DNA of 64,000 nt. Source: Psychroserpens mesophilus. GTDB lineage: Bacteria; Bacteroidota; Bacteroidia; Flavobacteriales; Flavobacteriaceae. The notes below the pieces were generated by a model. The model was not told the DNA's origin. It was given only the letters and a program-made list of their open reading frames with translations, and did no database searches. Shown in pieces: positions 3,697 to 36,210 of the stretch (its first letter is position 1; every line of letters starts with the position of its first letter). Where the stretch lies: positions 186,001 through 250,000 of the forward strand of contig NZ_JXJP01000001.1 in the NCBI RefSeq assembly GCF_000826645.1, given 5' to 3'. A program made the translations under genes and the position numbers.

Positions 3697-3785
3697 CAAC
3701 AGAATTAATTAATCCCTCTAAGTAATTTGTTGAATTAATAGCAAAGAAAAAAACCTAACAGCTTCATAAGTTGTTAGGTTTTATC
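3697..3785 (+). ncRNA. Candidate small RNA of about 90 nt between promoter and terminator
   Basis: Interval between the predicted -7 box at 3683-3690 and the hairpin terminator at 3750-3782. It contains only a 10-codon open frame (ATG at 3693, likely at or before the transcript start), so a non-coding RNA is more likely than a protein. The start is estimated as about 7 bases after the -7 box. No family match is claimed. Confidence 0.35.
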
Positions 3786-14241: not shown

Positions 14242-14246
14242 TTTTC

Positions 14247-14335
14247 CATTCGTCTACACTTTTATGCATTACAACTACCATAATTTTAATCCTATAGAAT
14301 ATTTAAATTTTCATGAATAGATAGCCATAGTTTTG
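14247..14335 (+). promoter_or_regulatory. LytTR-type site and promoter, gene 14362
   Basis: CATTCGTCTACA at 14247-14258; a weaker second unit follows 21 bp later. The -7 box TAGTTTTG (TAnnTTTG) is at 14328-14335, exactly 81 bp from the first base of the element. The start codon of the 93-aa protein follows at 14362. Confidence 0.7.
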
Positions 14336-14361: not shown

Positions 14362-14643
14362 ATGAAATCATTAAACCAATTTAAAAACTTATTGACATCA
14401 TCATTTGAAAAGAAAACACACCTTGCCGAAATTAATACAAAAGAGAAGGATATGGATTCTGAAAACAGTTTTCAAAAACAACTGCTAGATACAAGTTTAA
14501 GAAGACTGGAATTTATTAATTATTTTGAAACTGCAATTGATAAAAATAATCAAGATAAATTTTCATTGGGATTTCTGTTAGAGCTAGAGAATATGAAATA
14601 TACACTTCAATTAAAAGCACTAGATTTAATACATTCTGCATAA
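14362..14643 (+). CDS. Small uncharacterised protein of the LytTR regulon, 93 aa
   Basis: Soluble, mostly helical 93-aa protein without a signal peptide or membrane segment; polar N-terminal half rich in Lys and Glu, C-terminal half LLDTSLRRLEFINYF...SLGFLLELENMKYTLQLKALDLI probably two amphipathic helices. No family recognised. It has its own LytTR-type promoter with the exact 81-bp spacing and stands directly before the relay operon, so it is likely a regulated accessory or adaptor protein (inference). Confidence 0.6.
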   Translation: MKSLNQFKNLLTSSFEKKTHLAEINTKEKDMDSENSFQKQLLDTSLRRLEFINYFETAIDKNNQDKFSLGFLLELENMKYTLQLKALDLIHSA

Positions 14644-14654
14644 ACACCAATTAC

Positions 14655-14743
14655 CATTCGTCTACACATAAACGTCATTCGTCTACAGTTAATTCAGGTT
14701 AAACGAAATTTAATGTCCATCCTTCATATTTAGCTTATTTTTC
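14655..14743 (+). promoter_or_regulatory. Tandem LytTR-type sites before the relay operon
   Basis: Two identical CATTCGTCTACA units at 14655-14666 and 14676-14687, period 21 bp, which is two turns of DNA as expected for LytTR direct repeats. TATTTTTC at 14736-14743 (7/8 of TAnnTTTG) is 81 bp from the first unit. Predicts autoregulation of the operon starting at 14773. Confidence 0.7.
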
Positions 14744-14772: not shown

Positions 14773-15186
14773 ATGAGTAACCTTTTAAAAATTCTATTAA
14801 TAGAAGATGATGCCATTGAAGTCATGAAACTCAATAGAGCTATCACATCATTGGAATTAAAACACCAGATTATTGAAGCAAATAATGGTGAAGAGGCTTT
14901 AGAAATTTTAAAGAAAAAAGAGATACTTCCAGACATTATTTTGTTAGATTTAAACATGCCTAAAATAAATGGAATTGAATTTTTAGGGATATTAAAAGAA
15001 GATGACACTTTAAAATATATACCAACGATTATTTTGACAACATCTAATAATCAAAAAGATTTATTATCATGTTATAAAATTGGTGTTGCTGGTTATGTTT
15101 TAAAGCCTTTAAAATACGAAGAATACGTTTCAAAAATCGAAAGCCTATTATCGTATTGGAGTATCAACGAATTAATTAAAGTATAG
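14773..15186 (+). CDS. Single-domain response regulator (CheY/Rcp1/Spo0F-like)
   Basis: 137 aa, receiver domain only: acidic pair Glu11/Asp12/Asp13 (LIEDDA), phosphoacceptor Asp59 (ILLDLNMPKING), Thr in ILTTSN and Lys in VLKPLKY. No output domain, so it can only pass or hold phosphate or bind a partner. As the first gene of an operon with two non-hybrid kinases, an Hpt protein and a LytTR regulator, it is the natural second step of a four-step relay, like Spo0F (inference). Seven bases separate it from the H-NOX gene. Confidence 0.92.
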   Translation: MSNLLKILLIEDDAIEVMKLNRAITSLELKHQIIEANNGEEALEILKKKEILPDIILLDLNMPKINGIEFLGILKEDDTLKYIPTIILTTSNNQKDLLSCYKIGVAGYVLKPLKYEEYVSKIESLLSYWSINELIKV

Positions 15187-15193
15187 CACAAGA

Positions 15194-15733
15194 ATGAAAG
15201 GAATTGTTTTTACAGAATTTTTAGAGCTCGTAGAAGATAAGTTTGGGTTAGAAATGGTAGATCATATTATTTCAAGTTCAGAATTAGAGTCTGAAGGTAT
15301 TTACACTTCAGTTGGAACTTACAGTTTTTCAGAAATGTTGCAGTTATTACAACATTTAAGCGCCAGAACAGAGATATCCATTGATAATTTATTACTAGTC
15401 TATGCAGAACATTTTTTCAGTGTTATCGAAGATAGTTATCCTGGTCTTTTAGCAACTTATAAGGACCCAATCGAAATGATTTCTTCTATTGAAAATCATA
15501 TCCATGTTGAAGTGAGAAAAATATATCCTGACGCAGAGTTACCAGCTTTTGAAGTTGTCGAAAAAACCGACAATTCGCTTGTGATGATTTATAAATCTAG
15601 TCGAGCAATGCATCATTTTGGTCTAGGACTGATGAATAAAACATTTGAACATTTCAACTCTACCGCAACCATAGATTTAGAAAAGATAAAAGAAGACGGT
15701 ACAGAAGTTAGGTTTATCATACATAAGAATTAA
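15194..15733 (+). CDS. H-NOX (heme NO-binding, HNOB) sensor protein
   Basis: 179 aa, a stand-alone H-NOX domain. It opens with MKGIVFTEFLELVEDKFG, the standard H-NOX start. The proximal heme ligand is His104 (NHIHVEV), followed by the conserved proline in IYPDAELP (Pro112), and the heme-propionate motif Y-x-S-x-R is intact at Tyr133, Ser135, Arg137 (YKSSR). Stand-alone bacterial H-NOX proteins bind nitric oxide and control the kinase or cyclase encoded next to them; here the next gene, overlapping by one base (TAATG), is a histidine kinase. NO as the ligand is inferred from family; oxygen binding would need a distal tyrosine that cannot be judged by eye. Confidence 0.93.
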   Translation: MKGIVFTEFLELVEDKFGLEMVDHIISSSELESEGIYTSVGTYSFSEMLQLLQHLSARTEISIDNLLLVYAEHFFSVIEDSYPGLLATYKDPIEMISSIENHIHVEVRKIYPDAELPAFEVVEKTDNSLVMIYKSSRAMHHFGLGLMNKTFEHFNSTATIDLEKIKEDGTEVRFIIHKN

Positions 15734-17691
15734 TGAGTCAAGATCAGCTTGACATACTGCAACGTGCTTTGGAGCGCGAAAAAAAGGCGAGGAAGGCTGC
15801 CGAAAGAATTCTTGAAGAGAAATCTCGGGAACTGTTTCAAACGTCGCAACAAATCGAACAACTTTTACAAGAAAAATCTTCTCAATTACAAGGAATATTC
15901 GAAAACATTGTGGATGCTTATGTCGTGATGGATCTAGATGGAAATATACTTAAATTTAATGAAGCGGCAACTACATTGTTTGGTTATGATTTAGACATAG
16001 AATCTGTAAATGTTATGAATCTTATACATAAAGACGATTATCAATACGCAATGTCTTCTTTTCTGGATTTGCAAACAAATGGCCTTTTTAAAAACTATGA
16101 AACTAGAGTATGCACAAAATCTGGAGAAGTCAAATGGGTGCATGTTAACGGAAGTCTTGTTTTAGATAATACCAATACACCTATTGCTGCTCAAGGTATT
16201 GTTCGTGATATTACAGATCAAAAAACCTCAAAAGAAAAGCTTATTGAATCTGAAAACAGATTAGCAGCACTTGTTTTAAATCTCGATAGTGGTATTGTAT
16301 TAGAAGATGAAAATCGAAAAATAGTCTTGACCAATAAAAAATTCTGTGAACTTTTTAATCTTAGCGCGCAACCTGAAGATTTAATAGGTATGGATTGCAT
16401 TGCAGCATCAGAACAAAACAAACTATTATTTAAAAATCCAAAAGCTTTCTTAGAACGAATGAAAGAAATAAATCTGGATAAAAAACCTGTAGTAGGTGAT
16501 GAGTTAGAAATGCTTGATGGTAAAATATTAGAGCGCGATTATATGCCAATTACTATTGGAGAAAAATCTAAGGGTTTCCTTTGGACTTTTACAGACGTCA
16601 CCTTAAAAAGGACTTATAGAAAAAGTTTAGAAGCACAAAAACAAAAATATTACAGCATTATTGCTAACATGCACTTAGGTTTGGTTGAAGTTAATAATGA
16701 GGATGAAATCCTGATGATTAATCAAAGCTTCTCTGAGATGTCTGGTTATACGCAGGATGAGGTCATTGGTAAAAAAGGAAGTGAATTATTTCCTGTTGAA
16801 GGTGGTTCTGAAATTATCTCCCAAGAAAATGAAAATAGGAAACAAGGAAAATCGAATTCTTATGAGATTAAAGTTAAAACCAAACAAGGTGAGATTCGAT
16901 ATTGGTTAATAAGTGGAGCACCAAACTATAACCTGAAAGGAGAAGTTGTTGGGTCTATAGGTATTCATTTAGACATAACAGATTTAAAAACCTTAGAGTT
17001 TCAAAAAGAATCATTGCTTTTAGAACTTGAAAAAAGTAACAACGAACTTCAAGAATATGCACACATCGTTTCTCATGATTTAAAATCTCCTTTACGAAGT
17101 ATAGATGCACTTGTAACCTGGATAAAAGAAGATAATAAGGGCAAACTGGATGATGTTAGTTTGCAAAACTTCACTCATATTGAAGGAACTTTAGAAAAAA
17201 TGGAATTACTAATTTCAGATATTTTAAATTATTCAAGTATTGGTGCTTTTCAGATTGAAAAAGTTGAAGTTAATACAGACCTATTAGTAAAAGAGATAAT
17301 CAAAATTATATATGTACCTGAACATATTTCTATTGCTATAAATAAAACATTGCCAACTTTGAAAGGCGACAAAGTTAAACTTCAACAATTGTTTCAAAAC
17401 CTTATAAGCAACGCAATTAAATTCATAAATAAACCTGAAGGTGAAATTGTTATAGACGTGACATCTAAAGACGGTTTTTATGAATTCTCAATTTCAGATA
17501 ATGGCATAGGTATTGAAAAACAATTTCATGATAAAATTTTTAAAATTTTTCATGCACTAAATAAAAGTAAAGACTCAACAGGTATTGGTTTATCAATTGT
17601 GAAAAAAATTATTGACCAGCACGAAGGAAAAATTTGGTTAGAAAGCGAATTAAATAAGGGGACAACGTTCTTTTTTACATTAAAAAAATAA
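15733..17691 (+). CDS. Multi-PAS histidine kinase, H-NOX-associated
   Basis: 652 aa, no membrane helix. Order: charged coiled coil (about 5-50, with EREKKARKAAERILEEKSREL, shared in type with kinases linked to sensory partner proteins), PAS1 (about 51-160), PAS2 (about 170-290), PAS3 with PAC (about 295-420), HisKA with YAHIVSHDLKSPLRSID (His448), HATPase_c with N-box QLFQNLISNAIKF, DNGIGI and STGIGLSIVKKI. No receiver is fused. Overlaps the H-NOX gene by one base, so H-NOX very likely controls it. The kinase core is highly similar to that of the second kinase at 18833. Confidence 0.93.
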   Translation: MSQDQLDILQRALEREKKARKAAERILEEKSRELFQTSQQIEQLLQEKSSQLQGIFENIVDAYVVMDLDGNILKFNEAATTLFGYDLDIESVNVMNLIHKDDYQYAMSSFLDLQTNGLFKNYETRVCTKSGEVKWVHVNGSLVLDNTNTPIAAQGIVRDITDQKTSKEKLIESENRLAALVLNLDSGIVLEDENRKIVLTNKKFCELFNLSAQPEDLIGMDCIAASEQNKLLFKNPKAFLERMKEINLDKKPVVGDELEMLDGKILERDYMPITIGEKSKGFLWTFTDVTLKRTYRKSLEAQKQKYYSIIANMHLGLVEVNNEDEILMINQSFSEMSGYTQDEVIGKKGSELFPVEGGSEIISQENENRKQGKSNSYEIKVKTKQGEIRYWLISGAPNYNLKGEVVGSIGIHLDITDLKTLEFQKESLLLELEKSNNELQEYAHIVSHDLKSPLRSIDALVTWIKEDNKGKLDDVSLQNFTHIEGTLEKMELLISDILNYSSIGAFQIEKVEVNTDLLVKEIIKIIYVPEHISIAINKTLPTLKGDKVKLQQLFQNLISNAIKFINKPEGEIVIDVTSKDGFYEFSISDNGIGIEKQFHDKIFKIFHALNKSKDSTGIGLSIVKKIIDQHEGKIWLESELNKGTTFFFTLKK

Positions 17692-17693
17692 CA

Positions 17694-18833
17694 ATGAAAA
17701 CAGTACAGTTAGTTAAACAAAAACATAAGAATAACCAGTGGACATACGTTGGTCAAAATCAAAAATTAAAAGAACCGTTAGTTCTCGTATTTGGAAACAG
17801 GTATATGTTAGAAGAGGATTCTGTATATGAAGAAATAAGAAAATTGTTTCCAGATGGTCATATCATATTTGGTTCTGCCTGTGCGGAAATTTCATTAAAT
17901 ACAGTAAACGAAGAGAGTATTACGATAACAGCAATAGAATTTGAAAAAAGTAATTTTTTAATTAAAACGAGTAATGTTTTAAATTCAGATTTAGATAGTT
18001 TTAAAACGGGAAATGAACTTATTCAACAATTTCCAGAAGAAGGTTTGAAGTATGTATTCGTGGTGTCTGAAGGGAGTTTTATTAATGGAAGTCAGCTTAC
18101 CAAAGGCATGAATACTTCTACCCAAAATAATTTATTAATTACGGGAGGATTGTGTGGAGATGATGCACGTTTTGAAAAAACTCTAGCTTCGTACAATGAA
18201 AACCCAAAGGAGGGAGAAATTGTAGCTATTGGATTTTATGGTGAAACTTTAGAGGTGTCGTTTTCAATTCATGGTGGCTGGACACCTTTTGGCCCAGAAC
18301 GAATCGTTACAAAATCAAAAGATAATACATTGTATGAGTTAGATGGTCAACCTGCTTTAGATTTATATAAAACCTATTTAGGCGATAAAGCGAGAGATTT
18401 ACCTGGTACAGCTTTGCTATATCCATTAAATGTGACTTCAACTGAAGAAAAACAATCTATAGTGCGGTCGATTTTGAATATTAATGAAGAAGATAATGCT
18501 GTAATACTAGCTGGAGATATTCCTGTTAACTCAAAAGTGCAATTAATGATGACTAATGTCGATAATATTGCTAATGCTTCAGAACAAGCAGCAAGACAAG
18601 CATTAGAATTCAGAAAAAACAAACCTGAAATCGCCTTTTTAGTCAGTTGCATTGGTAGAAAATTAGTTTTAGATCAAAGAGTAGAAGAAGAAATAGAAGA
18701 AGTGATAGAGGTTTTAGGTAATAATACAGTTACATGCGGTTTTTATTCATACGGAGAAATAGCTCCTTTCCATGGTGAAGTAGCCTGTCAATTACACAAC
18801 CAGACGATGACCATAACATTAATGAGTGAATAA
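17694..18833 (+). CDS. FIST domain sensor protein (NosP-like)
   Basis: 379 aa with FIST N (about 20-210: VLVFGNR...IIFGSACAEISLNTVNEESITITAIEF...GGLCGDDA) and FIST C (about 230-375: LYELDGQPALDLYKTYLGD...GRKLVLDQRVEEEIEEV...GFYSYGEIAPFHGEVACQLHNQTMTIT). FIST proteins are cytoplasmic ligand sensors; one branch, NosP, has been described as a heme protein that senses NO and acts on a co-encoded kinase. This gene is followed by a kinase with a one-base overlap. Whether it binds heme cannot be decided from sequence by eye, so 'NosP-like' is inference from domain and context. Confidence 0.9.
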   Translation: MKTVQLVKQKHKNNQWTYVGQNQKLKEPLVLVFGNRYMLEEDSVYEEIRKLFPDGHIIFGSACAEISLNTVNEESITITAIEFEKSNFLIKTSNVLNSDLDSFKTGNELIQQFPEEGLKYVFVVSEGSFINGSQLTKGMNTSTQNNLLITGGLCGDDARFEKTLASYNENPKEGEIVAIGFYGETLEVSFSIHGGWTPFGPERIVTKSKDNTLYELDGQPALDLYKTYLGDKARDLPGTALLYPLNVTSTEEKQSIVRSILNINEEDNAVILAGDIPVNSKVQLMMTNVDNIANASEQAARQALEFRKNKPEIAFLVSCIGRKLVLDQRVEEEIEEVIEVLGNNTVTCGFYSYGEIAPFHGEVACQLHNQTMTITLMSE

Positions 18834-19879
18834 TGAATTCTTTGCTAAAACGACAAATTCGTAAATATTTAAGTGATGAATTAAAGCACAATGAGTCTTT
18901 GAAAGATTTTATTAATGCTGTTGATAGTTCATACGACAATTTTGACGAGCAGTCGGCAATGATTCAAAGAGCAATGTCTATTAGTTCAGACGAATTATTT
19001 ACTGCTAATAGACAATTACAAAAAGAAGCTAGCGAGCAAAAGCAATTAATTGATAAGCTAAAAAACGTTATTAATACACTTAAGTTTTATGACCTTAAGG
19101 AAGGCAATGCAATAGAAAATCTGGATTTAAGTGGTTCGAAACTGGTTGATTTTATTGATAATCAAACCAAAGAAATTGTTGAAATAAATAAGCAAAAGGA
19201 ATCTCTTTTAAATGAATTAGCGCATCAAAACCAAGAACTTAGTGATTATGCGCATATGGTATCACACGATTTAAAATCTCCATTACGAAGCATAGACACT
19301 TTGACAGCCTGGTTAAAGGAGGATTATCATGATAAATTAGATGAAAATGGTAAAAACAGTATCAAACTTATAAGAAACAATGTTGAAAAAATGGATACCC
19401 TAATTAATGGTATTCTAGAGTACTCTACCATTGGGAAAAATCAGATTGAAATTTATGATGTCCATATTAATACGCTTATAGATAATATTCTTAAGATTAT
19501 TCAGGTTCCAGAACATATCAAAATTATTAAACAGAACTTACCTATTATAAAAGGCGATAAATACAGACTGCAACAATTGTTTCAGAATTTAATTGATAAT
19601 GCCATCTCCTACAATGATAAAGAGAAGGGGCTTATTGAAATTGGTGTCCAAGATTCTGGAGATTTTTGGCAGTTTTATGTTAAAGATAATGGCAAAGGAA
19701 TTCCAGAGGTTTATTTTGAAAAGATTTTTAAAACCTTTGAAAAATTAGAAAGTGGAGATCAATCAACAGGTATTGGATTATCAATAGTAAGAAAAATAGT
19801 TGAGCTTTATGGTGGTCAAATTTGGGTAACATCTAAAGTCAATGATGGTACTACCTTTCATTTTACACTCAAAAAATAA
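18833..19879 (+). CDS. Histidine kinase, FIST-associated
   Basis: 348 aa, soluble. A helical N-terminal region (about 1-95, including AMSISSDELFTANRQLQKEASEQKQLIDKL in part) replaces PAS domains, then a coiled coil (KQKESLLNELAHQNQELSDY), HisKA with YAHMVSHDLKSPLRSID (His145) and HATPase_c (QLFQNLIDNAISY, DNGKGI, STGIGLSIVRKI). The core is nearly the same as in the H-NOX-associated kinase, including the following WLKEDYHDKLDE / WIKEDNKGKLDD segment, indicating a duplication. It overlaps the FIST gene (TAATG) and is 2 bases before the Hpt gene. Confidence 0.93.
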   Translation: MNSLLKRQIRKYLSDELKHNESLKDFINAVDSSYDNFDEQSAMIQRAMSISSDELFTANRQLQKEASEQKQLIDKLKNVINTLKFYDLKEGNAIENLDLSGSKLVDFIDNQTKEIVEINKQKESLLNELAHQNQELSDYAHMVSHDLKSPLRSIDTLTAWLKEDYHDKLDENGKNSIKLIRNNVEKMDTLINGILEYSTIGKNQIEIYDVHINTLIDNILKIIQVPEHIKIIKQNLPIIKGDKYRLQQLFQNLIDNAISYNDKEKGLIEIGVQDSGDFWQFYVKDNGKGIPEVYFEKIFKTFEKLESGDQSTGIGLSIVRKIVELYGGQIWVTSKVNDGTTFHFTLKK

Positions 19880-19881
19880 TT

Positions 19882-20199
19882 ATGGAACAACCTAATTTGT
19901 CTTATATACATAGCATGTCCGGTGGTGATAAAGCTTTTGAACAAAAGTTAATCAATATTATTAAAGTAGAATTTCCAGAAGAAAAACAAATCTATTTTGA
20001 TAACATAACTGCTGAAAACTATAAACTTACTGCTGAGAATGTTCATAAACTTAAACATAAAATTAGTATTTTAGGCCTTGAGAAAAGTTATGAGATTGCA
20101 GTAGCGTTCGAAAATAATTTGCTTGAGGGTGAAACAACACTGCGAGACGAATTTGAATCTATTTTAACCATCATGACTAATTATTTACAACAGTTATAA
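19882..20199 (+). CDS. Stand-alone Hpt phosphotransfer protein
   Basis: 105 aa, four-helix Hpt fold. The phosphohistidine is His55 in ENVHKLKHKISILGL, matching the Hpt pattern H-K-L-K-G with His in the place of Gly. Moves phosphate between receivers; in this operon it would connect the single-domain receiver with the LytTR regulator. Fifteen bases separate it from the LytTR gene. Confidence 0.88.
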   Translation: MEQPNLSYIHSMSGGDKAFEQKLINIIKVEFPEEKQIYFDNITAENYKLTAENVHKLKHKISILGLEKSYEIAVAFENNLLEGETTLRDEFESILTIMTNYLQQL

Positions 20200-20214
20200 T
20201 TAGGTATAAAATTT

Positions 20215-20922
20215 ATGAATTGTATTATTATTGATGATGAGGCTACAGCTAGAGCAATCATTGGCCAATTGTGTTCTAATGTAGAAAGTTTAAATGTCTT
20301 AGAAGAATTTCCAAATGCAATTCAGGCTATTAAGTATTTAAATCAAAATGAAATTGATTTGATTTTCTTGGATATTCACATGCCAGATTTTACCGGGTTT
20401 GATTTCATTGAAACCTTAAAAAATCCACCAAAAATAATACTGACAACCTCTGATGCCAACTTTGCCATTCAAGCTTTTGAGTATGATTGTATTGTAGATT
20501 ATCTCGTAAAGCCTATAACTCCTGAGCGTTTTCAAAAGGCCATTCAAAAAGCAGAATCTAAGACAAGTGTTTCCGCGTCATCCAATTCAGAAAAAGTTGA
20601 AACGACGTCTGGGAATGACTTATATGTAAACATTGACCGTAGACTTATTAAAATTGATATTCCAAGTATTTATTTAGTCGAAGCTAAAGGCGATTATATC
20701 CACGTTAAAACTGAGAATCAAAATTATACAGTGCATTCAACCTTGAAAAAGATTGAAGACAAATTACCTAATGATTTATTCTTAAAAGTCCACCGATCAT
20801 TTATCATTAATGTTGATAAAATCATTGATATTGAAGATAATAGTGTCCTTATCAAAAAAGACGTTATCCCTGTTAGTCGCTCTAATCGACCAGAATTAAT
20901 GAAACGTCTTAATTTACTTTAA
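20215..20922 (+). CDS. LytTR-family response regulator
   Basis: 235 aa. Receiver 1-118 with Asp7/Asp8 (IIIDDEA), phosphoacceptor Asp53 (FLDIHMPDFTG) and Lys in YLVKPI; a Ser/Thr-rich linker; LytTR DNA-binding domain about 135-235 (IDIPSIYLVEAKGDYIHVKTE...HSTLKKIEDKLP...FLKVHRSFIINVDKI...ISRSNR-like PVSRSNRPELMK). LytTR domains bind pairs of short direct repeats about 21-22 bp apart, and such repeats (CATTCGTCTACA) precede this operon and several nearby genes. It is the expected terminal output of the relay. Confidence 0.95.
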   Translation: MNCIIIDDEATARAIIGQLCSNVESLNVLEEFPNAIQAIKYLNQNEIDLIFLDIHMPDFTGFDFIETLKNPPKIILTTSDANFAIQAFEYDCIVDYLVKPITPERFQKAIQKAESKTSVSASSNSEKVETTSGNDLYVNIDRRLIKIDIPSIYLVEAKGDYIHVKTENQNYTVHSTLKKIEDKLPNDLFLKVHRSFIINVDKIIDIEDNSVLIKKDVIPVSRSNRPELMKRLNLL

Positions 20923-20925
20923 AAC

Positions 20926-21014
20926 CATTCGTCGATACTTAACTGTCAACCAACGAAGTAAATGTTCATCCAAGCGAAAAGAAGCGTTCAGTAAACTCAT
21001 CGGTATTATATTTG
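20926..21014 (+). promoter_or_regulatory. LytTR-type site and promoter, short transcript
   Basis: CATTCGTCGATA at 20926-20937, second unit CAACCAACGAAG 21 bp later, and TATATTTG at 21007-21014, exactly 81 bp from the first unit. A terminator follows at 21058, before any gene. Confidence 0.65.
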
Positions 21015-21020
21015 TTTTCA

Positions 21021-21090
21021 GTAATCATAACAATTTTGTGATTAATAGCAAAAGTTTAGGCAAAGGAGACATCTTTTGCCTTTTCTGTTT
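21021..21090 (+). ncRNA. Candidate LytTR-controlled small RNA, about 70 nt
   Basis: Interval from about 7 bases after the TATATTTG box at 21007 to the T-tract of the terminator at 21058-21090. It has no plausible coding frame of its own and is separated from the next gene by a second complete promoter (21120-21208). The end points are estimated. Confidence 0.45.
21058..21090 (+). terminator. Intrinsic terminator
   Basis: 10-bp stem with one G-T pair (AGGCAAAGGA at 21058-21067, TCTTTTGCCT at 21072-21081), loop GACA, T-rich tail TTTCTGTTTT. Confidence 0.8.
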
Positions 21091-21119
21091 TATACAAGGT
21101 TGTAAAAAGTTAGAAAAAC

Positions 21120-21208
21120 CATTCATCTACACTTATTTGTCAGCCAACGTTCTAAGCTTTGTGTCAATCGAAAATCAATTAATACACTGCCCTAACAAGA
21201 TATATTTG
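21120..21208 (+). promoter_or_regulatory. LytTR-type site and promoter, gene 21230
   Basis: CATTCATCTACA at 21120-21131, second unit CAGCCAACGTTC 21 bp later, and TATATTTG at 21201-21208, again exactly 81 bp from the first base. This places the transcript start near 21215, just before the ATG at 21230. Confidence 0.72.
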
Positions 21209-21229
21209 CCTCAGAATCTAAAAGATAAG

Positions 21230-23833
21230 ATGATGAGTAAATTTTACACGATAAAAAATCTATTAATTGTATTGGGATATTTTTTGATAAGTTTAATCAC
21301 AAATGCTCAAGATATTCCATTCAATTGTGATTACAACGCTTACTTATTTCAATTTAATGATGTGTACGCTATAGATTTAGCTTCAGGGAATTCATATCAA
21401 GTTGCGGCAGATGTAACAACAGGAAACATTAATGCAGCAGCTTATAATCCTGCTGACGGCTTTATTTGGGGATCTTTAACGTCTCCGGAAAAATCTATTG
21501 TTCGTATTGGTAAAAACTTTACAACAACAACGTTTTATATAGAAGAATTACCAACAAGTAACAGATATGTTGGTGACGTTAGTAGTGAAGGGATCTATTA
21601 TCTTAAAGGCGGTGGGACAACGTATTACAAAATTGATCTTAATCCAGATTCTGAAAACTATATTCAACATCAGGCTACAGAAACTTTATCTCAAAACATA
21701 AATGTTCATGATTGGGCATTCAATGCTGTAGACGGCATGATGTATACAGTTGAGAAGAATTCTAACATATTATATCGTATCGATCCTTCAAATGGAAACG
21801 TTCAAGCTATCGGCGAAGTGCCAATCTTATCAGGATTAAGCTACACATATGGTGCAGTTTATTTTGATGCAGACGGTCGCTTTTATGTTTCAGCAAATCA
21901 AACAGGAACTATATATGTCATTCAAAGTGTTCAGAATTTAACTGTAAACGGAGGAATGAATTCTAATTTGTTCGCTTTCGGACCTTCAAGTTCAAGTAAT
22001 GATGGAGCTCGTTGTCCAACAGCTCCTGTACTTCAGGAAATTTGCGATAATGGAATTGATGATGATGGTGACGGGCTTATTGATTGTGAAGATCCGTCAT
22101 GTTCTGGTTTTGGCGATTGTGCAGTGATTGTTCCACCAACTTCAGGAGGAAACGCTGGAGGACTTGAAAGTAATAATAGACTTTCAGAACAAATTAATAA
22201 GCGAAACTTTAATCGCGCTAAAACAAGTTTTAAATTTGATATGAGTTCAGCAAGACGAATAGAGAAATCTAATAGTTATGCACAACGCAATGCGAACTCT
22301 TCATTTACTCTTGAAGATTTTATTCCTATCGAAACTATTAATGAAGATGAGGTTATTGAGTCAACACCTTCAGATTTATTGAGCATAACGAATGCTACAG
22401 ATATATACGCCGTAGATTATCTCAAAAACGGCAGTCCGATAGCTTCAATATTGGCTTTAAAAACCGAGAATGGCGTTTACGAGCACACCAAATATATATG
22501 TGATAGATTATTAGGAGCAGAATTAATTTCGGTGTCAACTATAGATATTAATGAGCAGTCATTTATTAAATCAATTATAAAAAATGTAGATGGAACTTTT
22601 GAATTTGTTTTAAGCTTATCAGCAAAAGTGATTAATAACGATGAAAACTTTGCCATCGAGAGTCACTGGAATTTAGATCAGTACGAACAAGACGTGACAT
22701 TTTATAACTTTCAGATTTGGTCAAACTCTATGGATGATTTATATCGTTTAGGAGAAGAAGTTCTTAACTTGATTAACATTGAAAAACCAATTTCAGATTA
22801 TAACAACTCATCAGCACCAACCGTATTTGTTAGAAAAGGAAGATATACAAATGGTGCATTAGATTTACAAATTATTAATACAAATGCAACAGATAATGTA
22901 ACCTTTGATGCTGGTTTCAGAATAACAGAAACGAGTGAATTTGATAACATGAGTTCTACAATTGATTTGAATTCCAACTACATTACAAACCTTCAAGTAG
23001 AAACTGGTAACCTTTTTGATGTCGGATTCAGAATTGGCGATGGCATAGCAACACCAGATGATTTATTTATGTCTGATGGTCCATGGGGAATTGATGATTC
23101 GCAAGCGGGTACAACAGTATCGACATATGACGTACTACCAAATGTTTTTAATTTTGAAACCGATGAATTTCCTGTTGAACGTAACGTGCAATTACATGCA
23201 AGTACAAATACCTATGTTGCTGCATACAGAGCGTTAACACCTAGGTTTAAGGCCGTAGATTTAACCTTTTTCAATAGTTTGAAATTTCAAGCTGAAGGCA
23301 CAGGGACTTTAGAAATTACCTTAGTAAAACAAAGTATTTCTAGTTGGGAAAATCAATTTAAAACAACTATTGATTTATCATCTAACTTATTAGATTATGC
23401 ATTGCCAATATCGAGTTTTACATCTGCAATTGGAGGTGAACTAGTATTAAACGATGTAGTTACAATCGTGTTTACCATGGTGTCTGAATCTGGAATGACA
23501 GAAACAAAAATGTTAACGTTAAATGATTTACGTTTTTCAAAGGAAGATGCGTTATCTGTTGTTAGTTCTAAATTGGAACAAAACCAAATGATAGCCTACC
23601 CAAATCCAATGACCTCTAAGACAACTATTCAGTTTACTACGAATAAAACGGAAACTGTTCAATTTGTAATATATGATCAATTAGGAAAAGTTGTGTTTCA
23701 AACCAATTATAGAACAACACCTGGGACCAATAAAATTCAATTAAACAAACAACTGTTTCGTTCAGGTCTATACATCGCCAAATTAATAAGTCAGCATAAC
23801 CTTTATAATCCCCTAAAATTGATAGCTAGATAA
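21230..23833 (+). CDS. T9SS-exported protein with DUF6923-like propeller and MopE-type motif
   Basis: 867 aa from ATG 21230 (or 21233). Signal peptide (IVLGYFLISLITNAQ). Residues about 25-260 look like a DUF6923-type beta-propeller (FQFNDVYAIDLASGNSYQV; AYNPADGFIWG; YKIDLNPDSENYI; GAVYFDADGRFYVSAN). At about 270-291 is a MopE-type metal-binding motif, EICDNGIDDDGDGLIDCED. A LruC-like or adhesin-like region of unknown fold follows (LKNGSPIASILALKTENGVYEHTKYICDRLLGAE in outline). The C-terminus (about 795-867, YPNPMTSKTTIQF ... SGLYIAKLI) is a T9SS type A sorting domain. The frame is open further upstream, but the predicted promoter at 21201 rules out that longer start. Its own LytTR-type promoter makes it a likely matrix or surface protein of the regulon. 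Confidence 0.85.
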   Translation: MMSKFYTIKNLLIVLGYFLISLITNAQDIPFNCDYNAYLFQFNDVYAIDLASGNSYQVAADVTTGNINAAAYNPADGFIWGSLTSPEKSIVRIGKNFTTTTFYIEELPTSNRYVGDVSSEGIYYLKGGGTTYYKIDLNPDSENYIQHQATETLSQNINVHDWAFNAVDGMMYTVEKNSNILYRIDPSNGNVQAIGEVPILSGLSYTYGAVYFDADGRFYVSANQTGTIYVIQSVQNLTVNGGMNSNLFAFGPSSSSNDGARCPTAPVLQEICDNGIDDDGDGLIDCEDPSCSGFGDCAVIVPPTSGGNAGGLESNNRLSEQINKRNFNRAKTSFKFDMSSARRIEKSNSYAQRNANSSFTLEDFIPIETINEDEVIESTPSDLLSITNATDIYAVDYLKNGSPIASILALKTENGVYEHTKYICDRLLGAELISVSTIDINEQSFIKSIIKNVDGTFEFVLSLSAKVINNDENFAIESHWNLDQYEQDVTFYNFQIWSNSMDDLYRLGEEVLNLINIEKPISDYNNSSAPTVFVRKGRYTNGALDLQIINTNATDNVTFDAGFRITETSEFDNMSSTIDLNSNYITNLQVETGNLFDVGFRIGDGIATPDDLFMSDGPWGIDDSQAGTTVSTYDVLPNVFNFETDEFPVERNVQLHASTNTYVAAYRALTPRFKAVDLTFFNSLKFQAEGTGTLEITLVKQSISSWENQFKTTIDLSSNLLDYALPISSFTSAIGGELVLNDVVTIVFTMVSESGMTETKMLTLNDLRFSKEDALSVVSSKLEQNQMIAYPNPMTSKTTIQFTTNKTETVQFVIYDQLGKVVFQTNYRTTPGTNKIQLNKQLFRSGLYIAKLISQHNLYNPLKLIAR

Positions 23834-28919: not shown

Positions 28920-28941
28920 AGCTAAATCGCAAGCTTCTTTC

Positions 28942-29010
28942 CATTCATCTATAGTAAAAAGCATCCTGTCTACACTCGTCAATTTTACTCAGATTTATAG
29001 TGCAAATTTG
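28942..29010 (+). promoter_or_regulatory. LytTR-type direct repeat and promoter, GT4 gene
   Basis: CATTCATCTATA at 28942-28953 and ATCCTGTCTACA at 28963-28974; the TCTAYA cores are 21 bp apart. CAAATTTG at 29003-29010 is a 7/8 match to TAnnTTTG and lies 61 bp after the first unit. Transcript start would be near 29017, before the ATG at 29048. Confidence 0.55.
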
Positions 29011-36060: not shown

Positions 36061-36121
36061 TAGAAATAGTTGTCAATTTTGATAATGTAAAGATATATAA
36101 TAAAGATAGCCAGTCAGTTAT

Positions 36122-36210
36122 TAGTCATCTACAGAAATCTACCATTCGTCTACATTAACTGTTGTACCAACTAAATAAACAATTTTAAGGCGTCAATCAG
36201 AGTACATTTG
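36122..36210 (+). promoter_or_regulatory. LytTR-type direct repeat and promoter, receiver-GT2 gene
   Basis: TAGTCATCTACA at 36122-36133 and CATTCGTCTACA at 36143-36154 (21 bp), third weaker unit GTACCAACTAAA at 36164. TACATTTG, an exact -7 box, at 36203-36210 is 81 bp from the first unit and 60 bp from the second. The minus-strand operon starting at 36060 diverges from the same region. Confidence 0.72.

Follow-up and report, generated by a model that had tools for sequence, protein, structure and literature searches.

The gene for a LytTR-type response regulator and the gene for an exported protein of Psychroserpens mesophilus are separated by an interval that holds two promoter-like units. 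The second of these leads to the exported-protein gene and the first leads to a terminator, which raises the question of what the first unit produces. A first-pass annotation had proposed a short RNA of about 70 nt, made from a promoter of LytTR type. All positions refer to the window, i.e. the whole stretch of 64,000 nucleotides that was analyzed.

Layout of the locus

20215..20922, + strand: lytTR response regulator gene (receiver and LytTR DNA-binding domains; Pfam PF00072, PF04397; 80 homologous loci), last of the upstream signalling cluster
20924..20980, + strand: upstream activator-site region of unit 1 (ACCATTCGTCGATAC... CCAACG... CAAGCGAAAA), predicted LytTR sites (copy comparison, PWM, co-occurrence with lytTR)
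21007..21014, + strand: unit 1 -7 box TATATTTG at a spacing of 83 bp from its core; transcription predicted to start (+1) at about 21019
21058..21090, + strand: intrinsic terminator (terminator scan, fold), 10-bp stem at 21058-21081, about -12.9 kcal/mol, imperfect T-tract
21118..21208, + strand: unit 2 (box 21201-21208), second complete LytTR-type promoter, for the exported-protein gene (copy and spacing)
21230..23833, + strand: exported protein gene (DUF6923 repeat, C-terminal T9SS sorting domain; Pfam PF21959, PF18962)

The lytTR gene closes a run of genes (14773-20922) in the order response regulator, H-NOX (HNOB), PAS histidine kinase, FIST, second histidine kinase, 105-aa protein and receiver-LytTR. 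The 105-aa protein had no Pfam match; its position would fit an HPt-like role.

Unit 1 starts at 20924 with the core ACCATTCGTC and unit 2 has its core at 21118, both conforming to ACCATTCRTC. The box TATATTTG follows at 21007 and 21201, respectively, so that the core-to-box distance is 83 bp in both units. The promoter reported earlier at 20926 is indeed present, its spacing of 81 bp having been counted from that position rather than from 20924. Segments 20921-20980 and 21115-21174 are direct copies with 72% identity over 60 nt. Unit 2, the complete second copy that had been described ahead of the downstream gene, leads to the ATG at 21230, and unit 1 has a lower promoter score than unit 2 in most species. 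The terminator expected about 45 bases past the first box was found 43 nt after it. In Flavobacterium psychrophilum TAnnTTTG at -12 to -5 was mapped as the sigma-A -7 box (PMC9723704). The same placement of the box in unit 1 puts the predicted +1 near 21019 and gives an RNA of about 68-72 nt.

A promoter type shared among relatives

Homologous lytTR loci were fetched (80), and analyses were performed over 81 homologous loci; the lytTR homologues closest to that of the window are found in Psychroserpens, Arcticiflavibacter and Winogradskyella. In the window and its relatives, 24 of 58 distances from an exact core to TAnnTTTG are exactly 83 bp, and a second peak at 62-63 bp lies one 21-bp step nearer to the box. 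Units with the shorter spacing also occur in the window itself (28940-29010 and 36141-36210). An ungapped promoter PWM of 99 columns, built from 47 seeds and used with a score cut-off of at least 12, gave 180 matches in the 81 loci and 0 in reversed sequence, a count that is partly circular because these loci had also supplied the seeds. No such circularity attaches to the spacing peak, to the reversed control without hits or to the positions of the start codons. Gene-type units have an ATG 8-36 nt past the box in 138 of 146 cases (median 25), start codons typically lying 21-27 nt past it. The arrangement of the units is above chance and, judged from sequence comparison, they represent a genuine type of promoter.

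The recognition element CATTCGTC is present in two clear copies 21 bp apart at 14653/14674; in the units at 20924 and 21118 the second one is degenerate. LytTR control is expected to involve an element that recurs ahead of the core promoter with starts about 21 bp apart, and the predicted promoters fit this.

Link of the units to the LytTR regulator

Whole genomes were searched with R1, a sequence-only promoter model. All five strong matches (E < 1e-5) in the own genome fall within one 22-kb cluster, which includes three further units:

14245..14335, + strand: further unit, before the 93-aa gene at 14362 (PWM, R1)
14653..14743, + strand: further unit in which the 21-bp repeat is clearly seen twice; the next gene, a response regulator at 14773, heads the H-NOX/FIST/LytTR gene run (PWM, R1)
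36120..36210, + strand: further unit that leads to a response regulator/glycosyltransferase gene (PWM, R1)

Strong units were found in 12 of 12 genomes of the genus that have a LytTR orthologue (best E 2.6e-18 to 2.8e-7), and in 0 of 11 genomes of the genus lacking it, none of which had a match better than 5e-4. Within the genus the predicted promoter type is restricted to genomes with the cognate LytTR regulator. Among 199 sampled genomes of the family, 46 carry strong units according to R1. The LytTR protein is the predicted binder and activator of the unit promoters. The clustering of the units suggests a local regulon of H-NOX/FIST signalling, of which all members could be listed with the unit promoter as a highly specific signature and simple handle. 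Within the 22-kb unit cluster (14245-36212) there are also genes of exopolysaccharide type (flippase, glycosyltransferases) and genes for STAS-like proteins.

The short-RNA module and what it may stand for

A module was defined automatically as a unit followed by a terminator before any ORF. This rule recovered 30 modules in 25 loci and inspection added 9 loci, some with degenerate units, so that the module is present in about 34 of the 81 loci and missing from more than half of them. The distance from box to stem in the 30 short-RNA units has a median of 46 nt; most values are 44-47 nt, and 25 of the 30 fall within 40-51 nt. Modules occur in tandem in L031, L043, L049, L065, L066 and L105. 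In a Bizionia MAG (L066:6710-7788) three consecutive RNA modules separate lytTR from the DUF6923 gene. A search for orphan modules in genomes without a copy beside lytTR gave R1 matches nearly all in the same cluster. The same-cluster matches inspected in those genomes lead to genes, and one partial R1 match was located on another contig (L212).

The likeliest alternative, in itself unlikely, is that the terminator merely ends the upstream signalling operon, with unit 1 as a duplicated or relic promoter and any short RNA as a functionless by-product. That units 1 and 2 are direct copies would fit this, as would L042, L079 and L080, where an operon terminator comes soon after lytTR with no unit ahead of it, and the RNA body evolving nearly like spacer (see below). 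However, the exact 83-bp geometry of unit 1 is kept in many species, the box-to-stem length is tightly conserved, the RNA modules are found in tandem, and L069 has a separate terminator of its own between the lytTR stop codon and unit 1.

It was also considered that unit 1 is an extra promoter of the exported-protein gene and the hairpin a leaky attenuator, the product being a regulated leader instead of a small RNA; this appears distinctly improbable. The terminator tail in the window is imperfect (TTTTCTGTTTT), so some read-through may occur, and in L032, L060 and L064 the exported-protein gene follows unit 1 directly. A leader is difficult to reconcile with the complete second promoter that comes at once, with tandem copies, or with L038, L045, L052, L057 and L067, where the module stays behind lytTR although the next gene is not DUF6923. 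Furthermore, the 5' hairpin and the terminator do not overlap, so that no alternative anti-terminator is visible. The persistence of the module behind lytTR with other next genes, the tandems, the tight length and the L069 terminator together argue against a mere operon terminator as well as against a read-through leader.

The stem at 21058-21081 is the only terminator-like site found in 20000-22500, but a lone site is not above chance, as 0.9 sites are expected in shuffles of this 2.5-kb region. The comparison of loci supports the first unit as a source of a short RNA of about 70 nt, as had been proposed, through the fixed geometry, the co-occurrence with lytTR, the kept length, the tandems and L069. 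The interval has the features of an independent transcript: its own predicted promoter, its own intrinsic terminator, a short length and no coding capacity. We consider it probable that 20924-21090 constitutes a small-RNA gene, complete with promoter and terminator, that is controlled by LytTR and produces a short noncoding RNA. The promoter type, its tie to LytTR, the fixed promoter-terminator distance, the recurrence of the module and its tandem duplication are seen directly in the sequence comparison. LytTR would bind and activate unit 1, and the RNA would accumulate.

Form and conservation of the predicted RNA

21019..21090, + strand: predicted small noncoding RNA, length about 68-72 nt (geometry shared by about 34 of the 81 loci; no Rfam match)
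21022..21044, + strand: 5' hairpin TAATCATAA-CAATT-TTGTGATTA (fold)
21040..21049, + strand: GATTAATAGC box, 3' side of the hairpin, common to many homologous RNAs and recurring before other terminators

Folding of 21014-21095 (82 nt) has a z-score of -4.4. In most copies of the RNA the predicted fold has a hairpin at the 5' end, joined to the terminator by a short linker, and the hairpin and GATTAATAGC are common to close relatives. In the 5' segments folding is better than in their dinucleotide-shuffled versions (mean z -0.95, n = 30), and matched post-terminator spacers also fold less well (Mann-Whitney p = 0.001). RNAalifold on a mixed alignment recovered the terminator as the sole structure. 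Excess identity is 0.054 for the RNA body vs 0.022 for the post-terminator spacer; the terminator and promoters are conserved by contrast. The body of the predicted RNA evolves almost as fast as spacer DNA, and it is mainly the 5' hairpin, the length and the terminator that appear to be kept. Conservation of the interval in relatives, named in the first-pass annotation as a check, therefore holds for the box-to-terminator length (about 34 of 81 loci) and hardly for the RNA body, which is barely above spacer. The window region had no match in Rfam even at E <= 5.

A peptide encoded by the transcript is scarcely credible. A frame from GTG 21038 is open into the DUF6923 gene, for which the probability by composition is 0.7%, but the same frame is open in 0 relatives, the open stretch upstream of the ATG there being at most 45 codons and mostly below 20, and the predicted window RNA has no ATG. 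A peptide or extended DUF6923 frame starting at GTG 21038 was rejected since the frame is not kept in relatives. The 64 open codons of 21038-21229, running through the terminator and unit 2, are probably due to chance.

The GATTAATAGC box was considered as a seed specific to the small RNA and rejected, since it is also found elsewhere, in intergenic DNA and ahead of other terminators. Its core TTAATAGC had 4 occurrences within 60 nt upstream of 83 terminators vs 0.27 expected, as counted in a sample of 464 kb (20 stretches) of the own genome. Such occurrences of TTAATAGC, often as GATTAATAGC, in intergenic DNA shortly before intrinsic terminators include 3733-3741 and 21040-21049 in the window, the own-genome loci L178, L180, L186, L193 and L196, and 3' ends in relatives. 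This recurrence makes TTAATAGC probably a general 3'-end element; it is possibly a 3'-UTR or RNA-binding element of Flavobacteriaceae.

Possible mode of action

The likeliest role of the RNA is that of a trans-acting regulator adjusting pathway output, perhaps by base-pairing, a proposal to which we give a little less than an even chance. For the mRNAs of the cluster as targets, duplex energies in the start regions were on average no better than those of shuffled sRNAs, and none was consistent. The response-regulator gene was dropped as a target when its mean z of -1.4 in 7 genomes shrank to -0.34 in 33 genomes; likewise, the 93-aa gene had a mean z of -1.8 (n = 5) but -0.63 in 6 genomes. No proteins with Hfq or RRM_1 domains were detectable in the genome, and a literature search on the motif strings yielded no relevant paper among those listed. 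More speculatively, and with little probability, the RNA may be a pathway-specific sRNA of which the architecture (a fixed length, a hairpin at the 5' end and a TTAATAGC-type box ahead of the terminator) is selected and most of the sequence drifts, in a genome without detectable Hfq/RRM_1, TTAATAGC being the site of an RNA-binding factor.

In the proposed mechanism the H-NOX/FIST/histidine-kinase cluster would activate the LytTR regulator, which would bind upstream of the -7 box, at sites in helical phase, and turn on a set of promoters in the 22-kb cluster, one of which would make only a short RNA. With an H-NOX domain in the pathway, nitric oxide is a candidate for the inducing signal. RNA polymerase would start near 21019 and stop near 21086-21090, and the transcript would begin with the 5' hairpin and end with the terminator hairpin, a short linker lying between them. 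The RNA would be made upon LytTR activation along with the secreted protein and the first gene of the signalling operon itself. If true, the output of a two-component/LytTR pathway tied to the sensor domains H-NOX and FIST in marine flavobacteria would include a small RNA; few sRNAs of this family have been studied. With an RNA body that drifts fast, a geometry that is kept and no detectable Hfq/RRM_1, it would offer a way to test the working of sRNAs in Bacteroidota.

Comparison with known systems

The predicted RNA is new as such, having no Rfam family; RNAs driven by response regulators are already known as a kind. In Staphylococcus the LytTR-type response regulator AgrA activates the promoter of the regulatory RNA RNAIII, which is about 514 nt long, is highly structured and encodes a peptide. 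Both systems would place an RNA under control of the LytTR family, but the predicted RNA of the window is about 70 nt and noncoding.

The csRNAs of streptococci are controlled by CiaR, which is not a LytTR regulator. As in the window, they combine a response-regulator promoter with a close terminator, are intergenic and occur in tandem copies (PMC8186281). They are 87-151 nt long, highly similar to each other and complementary to ribosome-binding sites (PMC8186281), whereas the flavobacterial RNA is shorter and varies quickly in sequence. Bacteroidetes are described as naturally lacking Shine-Dalgarno sequences (PMC6847099). By analogy, the window RNA may work similarly to the CiaR csRNAs; membership of the csRNA family is not claimed.

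Rfp18 and other Rfp RNAs of F. psychrophilum are likewise independent small transcripts, from the same bacterial family, and probably act by base-pairing (PMC9723704). They differ in not being reported as LytTR-controlled (LytTR is absent from the text of PMC9723704), a distinction based on their description.

In the LytTR Regulatory Systems of Streptococcus mutans, direct repeats that are mostly 12 bp apart are located upstream of the promoter, 4-11 bp upstream of the -35 element (PMC6193735). Recognition of direct repeats upstream of a promoter by LytTR-family regulators would be common to both. In the window, however, the first site lies 83 bp from the -7 box and the promoter has no clear -33 TTG, and unlike the S. 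mutans systems, which have a membrane inhibitor, the regulator here is a receiver-domain protein.
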